Positions 41,603 to 43,483 of a stretch of 64,000 nt of DNA are shown here, piece after piece. The DNA comes from Acetohalobium arabaticum DSM 5501 (GTDB taxonomy: Bacteria; Bacillota; Halanaerobiia; Halobacteroidales; Acetohalobiaceae). Each line of letters opens with the position of its first letter. Within the stretch, counting starts at the first letter, position 1. The translations under genes and the position numbers were made by a program. A model generated the notes under the pieces. It was given only the letters and a program-made list of their open reading frames with translations. It was not told where the DNA came from and searched no databases. The stretch covers positions 1,822,043 through 1,886,042 of the forward strand of contig NC_014378.1 in assembly GCF_000144695.1 (NCBI RefSeq), given 5' to 3'.

Positions 41603-41642
41603 GGTATTTCCCTCCAATATAAATATATTTTTTCAACCTAAT

Positions 41643-41666: not shown

Positions 41667-41711
41667 ATTTTGGTAAAGTGCAGCTATATTGATATAATGT
41701 TGCAGTTTAGA

Positions 41712-41858
41712 GTTGATATCTTGCAAACGCTCCGAAAATCAGCCCTAGTCAATCAGCAATAAACTAATCTTAGAGATACGATTTAAAGAGCCTACTTTAT
41801 ATGTTAATTATCTTCTCTTATGGGGCTGCTTTAAAGTCGCTTGTTGCAAGATATCAAC
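41712..41858 (-). repeat. 147-bp inverted-end element, copy 3
   Basis: Exactly 147 bp. Read on the minus strand it has the same 15-bp ends GTTGATATCTTGCAA and TTGCAAGATATCAAC as copy 2, the inner CAGCCC/GGGCTG blocks and the flanks GCACAATTA (left) and CTCTAAACTGCAAC (right). It is in inverted orientation to copy 2, 6 kb away. Confidence 0.88.
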
Positions 41859-41922
41859 TAATTGTGCAAAATTATCTGAGGAAGCGTTAAAAAACCAAAC
41901 CAATGAAATTTCTGTACTATAA

Positions 41923-42050
41923 ATAGTCAATATGTGTCCAGAGCGACTCTTAAAAACAGTTTGGAGCCATGGACGGCGGAAAACTGTTTTTTGACAGTGA
42001 GCGAAACAGGACGTTGAGCGAACGACAAGCGGCGGATACATATTGACTAT
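41923..42050 (-). repeat. Module B palindromic element (128 bp)
   Basis: Bounded by a 17-bp inverted repeat, ATAGTCAATATGTGTCC and GGATACATATTGACTAT (one wobble-type mismatch). Inside, AAAAACAGTTT and AAAACTGTTTTTT form a second stem. In both copies of the window it lies next to a 147-bp element in the same relative order, so the two modules may form one composite repeat. Confidence 0.7.
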
Positions 42051-42134
42051 CCCCGGAATATCATGAATGAGACCATATTAGCTACAAGTGGGAAGTGACA
42101 CAATATATCAATTATGTTTTGAAAGTTTAGGAAA

Positions 42135-42178
42135 TAATCCGTAACCCTCCCTTTTTCAAATGGGAGATATAAGGATTA
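42135..42178. other. Hairpin upstream of the structured RNA
   Basis: TAATCC/GGATTA and CTCCC/GGGAG form a nested stem. It may mark the left end of the IS605-like remnant, but I cannot match it to a known left-end hairpin. Confidence 0.4.
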
Positions 42179-42198
42179 GCAAATATTAATTTAAATAA

Positions 42199-42227
42199 TT
42201 GATATTTGCTCCATAATTTATTATAAT
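42199..42227 (+). promoter_or_regulatory. Sigma-A-type promoter of the structured RNA
   Basis: TTGATA, a 17-base spacer and TATAAT on the plus strand. The only thing downstream is the structured region 42234-42517, so it appears to drive an RNA gene and not a protein gene. The -35 also falls within a GCAAATAT/ATATTTGC inverted repeat (42179-42209). Confidence 0.65.
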
Positions 42228-42233
42228 ATAGAT

Positions 42234-42517
42234 GTAAATCACAAGTGAATATTGGAGGTTGCAGTAGCTAAACCTCTACTGTGTAAAATATTCAGGGGGC
42301 TCGTTGTAGATAGAAGACACTAAATCTTCTAGTAAGCACTTATAGAGATGCTTACACTTCTATCTTGAGCAATAAAAGTATCTCTGAGTCTAGCACCTAT
42401 GCTAGATAGGAGTAGTGGCATTGGACACGCCGATTGGGTAACTTGCTTGATATTACGGGTAATTCCCATAAAAGCAAGCGACCATGAAGCTCGGTATTTC
42501 AATGCCGAGTAGTTCAC
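42234..42517 (+). ncRNA. Structured RNA, candidate orphan IS200/IS605 omega-RNA
   Basis: About 280 nt with many nested pairings and no convincing protein frame. Near the 5' end GAGGTT/AACCTC and CAGTAG/CTACTG interleave as an H-type pseudoknot (about 42255-42281). AGATAGAAG (42308-42316) pairs with CTTCTATCT (42357-42365), enclosing GTAAGCA/TGCTTAC. CTAGCA/TGCTAG (42390-42405) and CTTGCTT/AAGCAAG (42442-42478) follow. It ends in a CTCGGTAT/ATGCCGAG hairpin and TAGTTCAC, the familiar right end of IS605-type elements, where TnpB guide RNAs end. No tnpA or tnpB is present. The exact family is not proven. Confidence 0.6.
42489..42517 (+). mobile_element. IS200/IS605-type right-end hairpin (element remnant)
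   Basis: An 8-bp stem CTCGGTAT/ATGCCGAG with loop TTCA, preceded by ATGAAG and followed by TAGTTCAC. This layout is typical of IS200/IS605 right ends beside tnpB genes. With no transposase within reach, this is a decayed or non-autonomous copy that could be moved by a TnpA elsewhere in the genome. Confidence 0.65.
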
Positions 42518-42574
42518 TAACAGTATCACTACGTAAATCAATTGAGCTCATTATTTCATCACCCTTAATTTATT

Positions 42575-43483
42575 TTAAACCGCTTCTTCTTTTGGTTTAC
42601 TTAATTTCAATTCAGCGATAATCATACCGACAACGATTAGTAATCCACCCCAGTAACTATTCACACTAATAACCTCTCCTAGATAAAAGTAAGCAAAAAC
42701 TGCGGCAAATACCGGCTCCATAGAAAAAATAATAGCAGTTCTAGTCGGTGTTGTAAATTCCTGGGCCTTATTCTGTACTACTAAGGCCAAGGTAGTAGCA
42801 AAAAACGCCATATAGACTACTGCACCCCAGAGTTCAGGCTGCAACACCACCTCAAAACTCCCTTCCACTAAAGACGAAAAACCACTCAATAAAGCTACTG
42901 TTGTAATCTGGACTATAGTCAACAGAATTGAATCCTTCTGCTGAACATACTTTCCTACTAGTAGAATATAGACAGCCAGGGAAACTGCACATAAAAAGAC
43001 CAAAAAATCACCAAAATTAAAGATAAACTCTCCATTAAACGATAATAGACCAAGTCCAATAGTAGCTAAAGTAACACCAATAACCGTTAACATGGAAGGT
43101 ATCTTCTTTAGAATAATTGCTGATAAAATCGGTACAATAACTACTGATAGACCTGTTAGAAAGCCTGCTTTAGAAGCAGTAGTATAATTTAGACCTACCA
43201 CCTGAAAAGCAAAGCCTCCAAATAAAAAGATTCCTACAAAAGAACCGAGCTTAATAGTCTCCCAATCCAATTTCTTCAACCGGCGGTGAAATATTAATAC
43301 CAATACTATAACTGCTGTCCAAAACCGCAGCGTTAGAAAGTAAAACGGTGTTACTATATCAAAAACGCCCTTCATAATTGCAAAGGTTGTCCCCCAGACA
43401 AAGACTACAAATAATAAAGCTAAATCTGCTTTAATCCTCTTTTTAAATGATACTTCTTCATACTCTTCCATCTTCTTTTCCAC
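42575..43483 (-). CDS. EamA/DMT family transporter
   Basis: About ten membrane helices in 302 residues with two EamA repeats (LALLFVVFVWGTTFAIMKGVFDIVTPFYFLTLRFW and VVYMAFFATTLALVVQNKAQEFTTPTRTAIIFSMEPVFAAVFAYFYLGE). The second repeat motif and the final helix are typical of inner-membrane metabolite exporters of the drug/metabolite superfamily. The substrate cannot be read from sequence. Start is GTG at 43483 or ATG at 43471; neither ribosome site is clearly better. Nothing in the context fixes its role. Confidence 0.88.
   Translation of the reverse strand: MEKKMEEYEEVSFKKRIKADLALLFVVFVWGTTFAIMKGVFDIVTPFYFLTLRFWTAVIVLVLIFHRRLKKLDWETIKLGSFVGIFLFGGFAFQVVGLNYTTASKAGFLTGLSVVIVPILSAIILKKIPSMLTVIGVTLATIGLGLLSFNGEFIFNFGDFLVFLCAVSLAVYILLVGKYVQQKDSILLTIVQITTVALLSGFSSLVEGSFEVVLQPELWGAVVYMAFFATTLALVVQNKAQEFTTPTRTAIIFSMEPVFAAVFAYFYLGEVISVNSYWGGLLIVVGMIIAELKLSKPKEEAV

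Follow-up and report, generated by a model that had tools for sequence, protein, structure and literature searches.

The question raised by this locus is what a promoter, a structured RNA and an IS605-type right end are doing together in a place where no transposase or nuclease gene adjoins them. The window, i.e., the whole 64,000 nt stretch of Acetohalobium arabaticum DSM 5501 DNA that was analyzed (NC_014378.1, positions 1,822,043 to 1,886,042), holds the locus between aroE (ending at 41617, minus strand) and an EamA-type transporter gene (42575-43483, minus strand), both named by eye. An earlier note, made from the sequence alone, had placed the start at 42199, which proved too late: the first base of the element is 42131, directly behind TTAG (42127-42130), and a palindrome marks this left end. 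The whole element occupies 42131-42517 on the plus strand (387 bp), and its features, with those of its immediate flanks, are the following.

42126-42130, plus strand: (T)TTAG in the left flank, target and presumed TAM, from comparison of copies
42136-42177, plus strand: left-end palindrome 1, AATCC..GGATT, from alignment; imperfect in the window, perfect in copy L015
42178-42210, plus strand: left-end palindrome 2, AGCAAATAT..ATATTTGCT, from DNA folding
42199-42227, plus strand: promoter TTGATA-17-TATAAT, 11 of 12 consensus bases, best among five promoter-like sites
42241-42302, plus strand: 5′ pseudoknot module, from a match to model R1 (76.5 bits) and from covariation
42309-42364, plus strand: middle domain, stem GATAGAAG/CTTCTATC around two hairpins, from folding
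42373-42517, plus strand: TnpB omegaRNA scaffold, 87-95% identical to 16 tnpB 3′ ends
42422-42426, plus strand: TGGAC, predicted to pair with GTTCA at 42512-42516 (guide-flank pseudoknot), from a termini test
42490-42509, plus strand: right-end hairpin CTCGGTATTTCAATGCCGAG, from the sequence, with the compensatory variant CTCGGTAATTCATTGCCGAG in other copies
42513-42517, plus strand: TTCAC, right boundary, the last bases common to all flush copies and to tnpB copies
42518-42537, plus strand: presumed guide, about 16-20 nt of the flank past the right end, placed by position as in known TnpB omegaRNAs

A search of the organism's own genome (2,469,596 bases) with the element region returned 29 DNA matches. 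Ten of them are full-length copies and one is a chimeric partial copy; at 16 further loci the similarity is confined to the last 145 bases or part thereof, and the remaining two matches are short. The ten copies align from TTAG|GAAATAATC to TAGTTCAC with sharp ends and unrelated flanks, the left end being degraded in one copy and the right end in one. Three related species have the joined flanks of copy L013 as one colinear chromosomal stretch that lacks the element, and one species shows the same for copy L015. Ten copies, unrelated flanks and empty sites therefore define a mobile element with precise ends. TTAG directly precedes nine of the ten copies, and the colinear empty sites show insertion 3′ of this fixed short target with no target duplication. 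Subterminal palindromes are found at both ends (42136-42210 on the left, 42490-42509 on the right), and the left end (42127-42212) folds as DNA with z -4.25. The terminal CTCGGTAT/ATGCCGAG hairpin and TAGTTCAC end at 42517, which had been read as an IS605-type right end, are indeed the right boundary, and tnpB copies share the same TTCAC end. Positions 42131-42517 are a non-autonomous IS200/IS605 element, PATE- or MITE-like, with an RNA as its sole predicted product. Neither tnpA nor tnpB lies inside or beside it, in agreement with what had been claimed of transposase and nuclease genes; relatives with both genes occur elsewhere in the genome, which holds 29 tnpB and nine tnpA matches, full-length tnpA among the latter. 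The nuclease and transposase for this element can only come from there. No match to the element was returned from plasmid records, and one strict pattern found none in viral contigs.

Some observations concern the copies and the surrounding DNA in their own right. The left-end palindrome loop is inverted in L015 (CATTTGAAAAAG versus CTTTTTCAAATG in other copies), as if the palindrome had flipped. The chimeric copy (L018, own genome, 23199-23469) has a window-type module and omegaRNA inside a split older orphan element of the L020/L043 type. The element's left flank (42001-42112, adjoining 41921-42052) falls in a second repeat, bounded by the inverted sequences ATAGTCAATATGTGTCC..GGATACATATTGACTAT, of which about 15 more copies are present in the same genome (matches to joined-flank query positions 1-120), and an inverted repeat, GTTGATATCTTGCAA..TTGCAAGATATCAACT, lies at about 41709-41862 between aroE and this second repeat.

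The promoter proposed at 42199-42227 is present as described, and its TATAAT -10 hexamer is kept in 10 of 10 copies. Transcription is predicted to start near 42234, and for an RNA of about 42234-42517 the folding energy is -89.7 kcal/mol, shuffled sequences averaging -67.8 (z -4.35, 0/200). The long stem said to close around a hairpin is likewise there (42309-42316 with 42357-42364) and is almost invariant across the ten copies. The identity of the 3′ part is given by the tnpB loci. Looking through the genome for tnpB genes with the same RNA returned 16 loci rather than none, the RNA lying at the 3′ ends of the genes and ending at the right end. The TAA at the scaffold start (42373-42375) is the position of the TnpB stop codon in the tnpB copies, and the homology begins exactly at that codon and runs through TTCAC in 13 of the 13 copies with an intact 3′ reading frame. 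As 16 tnpB copies have an RNA like its final 145 nt at their 3′ ends, from the stop codon on, the window RNA is, judged by its sequence, an orphan TnpB omegaRNA that has a promoter of its own and is presumably a TnpB ligand; the free-standing omega-RNA suggested earlier is thereby borne out. This tnpB family also uses the same target, 14 of 15 copies starting after (T)TTAG, and its left end differs from that of the window element beyond the first bases.

The omegaRNA part folds better than its shuffles (z -3.92). The stem of its first hairpin is CTAGC/GCTAG in the orphans and CCAG/CTGG in the tnpB copies, a change on both sides of the helix. In the termini test on 17 orphan RNAs, the RNAs' own termini paired better than swapped ones, a modest signal equaled by 28 of 5000 permutations. 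Rfam places the RNA only loosely. The HEARO match that had been considered was found neither across the whole window at the gathering threshold nor locally at E 10, and a HEARO/IscB omegaRNA identity was rejected, as was a group I intron (IStron) identity, also with no Rfam match. The closest family is sot0042 (RF02656), matched at 42376-42510 with 34.4 bits and E=5e-7, well under its gathering score of 88; this structure-based match runs over the whole model and covers the omegaRNA part only, with the 5′ module excluded.

In the partner TnpB (433 aa) the first RuvC motif is present, as is an Asp in the third; its nuclease activity is uncertain because Gly replaces the expected RuvC-II Glu (VGDIKNI, by eye). 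TnpBs of other orphan-bearing families, described below, have canonical D-E-D residues. Among the named genomes searched for the partner TnpB, one distant relative was found, in an archaeon. Gly in place of the RuvC-II Glu (VGDIKNI, IGDIAGI) was noted in the partner TnpB and a related clade (L027:1205-2506, L041, L097, L108). Separately, a raiA RNA (RF03072, 181 bits; L037:950-1219) precedes a degraded tnpB copy, whose right end lies about 1.6 kb downstream of it.

What precedes the omegaRNA is less familiar. The 5′ module (42241-42297, about 60 nt) consists of a stem, a hairpin and a loop pseudoknot: P1 is formed by 42247-42252/42288-42293, P2 by 42261-42267/42276-42282, and the loop CCU (42273-42275) pairs with AGG just 3′ of P1 (42295-42297). 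Distant relatives of 42241-42302 are present in other genomes of the order, and no credible Rfam match was found for this segment or for its relatives. In an alignment of 11 sequences, P1 (6 bp) and P2 (7 bp) are paired in every cell, and P2 shows two-sided change in 7 of 7 pairs with a covariation score reached by 0 of 500 shuffles. The loop CCU and its 3′ AGG are paired in 97% of cells, a signal that is abolished by sliding the partner; in further relatives the pairing varies as a unit (by eye: UGCU/AGCA in G222, GGU/ACC in G181b, UGGG/CCCA in G288, CUU/AAG in G181g), and pseudoknot covariation is retained in a wider set of 14 sequences. The H-type pseudoknot described at first is thus real, conserved and covarying across genomes, but it has P2 as its main helix, joined by a pairing between the loop and 3′ bases, and is not of the simplest H-type form. 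A simple H-type stem, GGAGGTT/AACCTC, fits the window; across relatives it pairs in just 80% of cells with no two-sided change, and the loop-to-3′ pairing was therefore adopted. Two modules with enlarged P2 loops (L067 and L139) share GCGATAACCAAGC, perhaps a further RNA domain.

When 398 sampled genomes of the phylum were searched with a covariance model built from the wider set, 14 had the module; several of the 14 also supplied model sequences, and the E-values are rough. At most of these loci an IS605-like right end follows within about 150-300 nt; G000 (an old copy), G002, G158, G086, G332 and G120 (at a contig end) are incomplete or ambiguous. The stretch between module and right end matches tnpB 3′ ends, which often come from the same genome. 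The match is 97-99% for G102 (four tnpB loci), 92-94% for G222, 97% for G181a, 88% for G003, about 80% for G008c and G009, and 67-83% for others. In several families its start falls between 40 nt ahead of the TnpB stop codon and a point just past it. The TnpBs concerned are mostly 22-40% identical to one another and make up at least seven families including the window's own, pairs at 59%, 71% and 84% identity being taken as single families. Genome G008 alone has similar modules ahead of at least three scaffold types. Models R1 and R2 returned no module in about 70 tnpB loci, and the idea that the pseudoknot is part of tnpB mRNAs was dropped. Given such varied tnpB-like scaffolds and no module at tnpB loci, there is thus one module for many scaffolds, in tnpB-less elements only. 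Model R2 also found no match in archaea, in 197 genomes of the phylum of the named tnpB relative, a set in which no positive control matched either. The earlier note was right about an orphan RNA but missed its ten-copy mobility, its upstream start and this phylum-wide 5′ module.

At three loci (L073, L147, L151) the module is directly preceded by TCTTTGAAAAC. One orphan with a large P2-loop insertion (L139:178-800, genome G008) has a lysine riboswitch on one side and a lysA-like gene on the other, a position in which it could disturb regulation.

The element with its copies and boundaries, the common omegaRNA and the conserved pseudoknot are all observed, and the explanation that we regard as quite probable is that a gene-less IS605 element makes an orphan TnpB guide RNA with a 5′ leader and is kept by the TnpA and TnpB of others. 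The promoter would give an RNA of about 284 nt (transcription as predicted) with the 5′ pseudoknot leader, the middle stem domain and a complete TnpB omegaRNA, and the guide would be copied from the flanking host DNA. A free-standing omegaRNA has no long translated tnpB mRNA ahead of it, so a leader for 5′ protection or antitermination is sensible; standing in tnpB's place, the pseudoknot may stabilize the 5′ end, sustain transcription of an untranslated RNA, or both. That the module is a leader for RNA stability or transcription of some kind is a proposal we rate slightly short of even.

One specific, non-exclusive form of such a role would be an antitermination leader as in rRNA operons, with a boxA and the pseudoknot together preventing termination. 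In G181 and G288 the bases directly before P1 (TCTTTGAAAAC) are the rrn-leader motif of the own genome (TGATCTTTGAAAACTG, 5/5), which we take to be boxA; this gives antitermination a lead. In the window copy and other Halanaerobiales copies, however, ACAAGT stands in that position with no recognizable boxA, and the module was not found in rrn leaders, making this form unlikely.

How the ten copies diverge bears on whether the RNA matters at all. The element might be a passive deletion derivative, IS605 ends that TnpA mobilizes and in which RNA parts survive for no other reason than the overlap between omegaRNA and right end; ends-only IS605 sequences are known, including a PATE-like one of 271 nt in Halanaerobium hydrogeniformans (PMC7290912). 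In pairwise comparison the ten copies differ on average by 1.0% in the module and 1.4% in the middle domain, parts that TnpA does not need. The corresponding values are 3.6% for the omegaRNA, 7.3% for the left end, 9.5% for the right-end hairpin and 14.4% for the promoter stretch. That the parts unneeded by the transposase are the best conserved argues for a function of the RNA, and gene conversion could contribute to the low divergence of module and middle domain. The 5′ module, moreover, is not derived from tnpB and recurs with seven TnpB families, and we consider a passive derivative quite unlikely.

A 5′ module that releases the omegaRNA, as a small self-cleaving ribozyme or as a processing site, is very improbable. 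Its compact pseudoknotted fold, with the loop pairing just 3′ of P1, and its fixed place upstream of the omegaRNA would suit such a role, but it has no Rfam ribozyme match even at E 10 and no recognized catalytic core. Nor is a ribozyme needed, since TnpB is reported to process its own mRNA (PMC10278001).

Among the three roles first proposed, a non-autonomous element and a guide in trans fit, but recruitment for host regulation is unsupported: a host-recruited guide for a regulatory, nuclease-dead (TldR-like) TnpB would accord with the missing RuvC-II Glu of the partner and is hardly credible for ten dispersed copies with different guides and a 5′ module that also serves families with canonical D-E-D TnpBs.

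Returning to the gene-less element and its orphan guide, the way in which it could be kept follows known IS200/IS605 biology, in which TnpA excises the element beside a target motif, and TnpB with its omegaRNA recognizes that motif plus the flank in the resealed donor site, promoting the element's return (PMC11870625). TnpA, the Y1 transposase, encoded elsewhere in the genome, would move the window element, and TnpB of the 16-copy family would load the orphan RNA, a step we hold to be reasonably likely, and would target TTTAG plus guide at the vacated donor site, so that the element would be maintained just as a copy with tnpB is. With TnpA and TnpB provided, an element producing the matching omegaRNA would gain both services with no genes of its own. 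If the partner TnpB is nuclease-dead, binding alone would change the last of these steps.

Gene-less IS605 derivatives are already known and omegaRNAs are well studied. Like PATEs (palindrome-associated transposable elements) and other non-autonomous IS200/IS605 derivatives, the window element has IS605 ends and no genes and would be mobilized in trans. The PATE-like element of H. hydrogeniformans consists of a 28 nt left end, 58 nt of tnpB and a right end (PMC7290912); the window element, in contrast, has no tnpB remnant, has a promoter, a conserved pseudoknot and a middle stem, and is present in ten copies. As in the ISDra2-type TnpB omegaRNA (reRNA), the 3′ UTR and right end would serve as scaffold with a guide from the flank, and the predicted guide-flank/scaffold-loop pseudoknot would resemble that described for ISDra2 and IS607, in which guide-flanking bases pair with a scaffold loop (PMC10711439). 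Unlike the ISDra2 type, the window omegaRNA is encoded free-standing, with its own promoter and 5′ leader, and not in a tnpB mRNA. IStrons (group I intron plus IS605/IS607 ends) also place a structured RNA upstream of omegaRNA and right end, but the window has no group I intron match and its 5′ domain, at about 60 nt, has another fold. No description of a conserved structured 5′ module common to the orphan omegaRNAs of many TnpB families was found in Rfam or in the part of the literature covered, and the common covarying 5′ module is likely new. We tentatively propose it as a general head for free-standing TnpB guides of at least seven families, possibly acting in antitermination, 5′ protection or TnpB loading.

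If this is true, orphan guide RNAs can be searched for by their 5′ module, which also offers a concrete motif to test and possibly a natural way of producing TnpB guides separately from the tnpB gene, something of practical interest where TnpB is used as a tool. Gene-less IS605 elements would then be recurrent parasites of parasites and not just relics, keeping the guide RNA only and depending on another element's RNA-guided nuclease.
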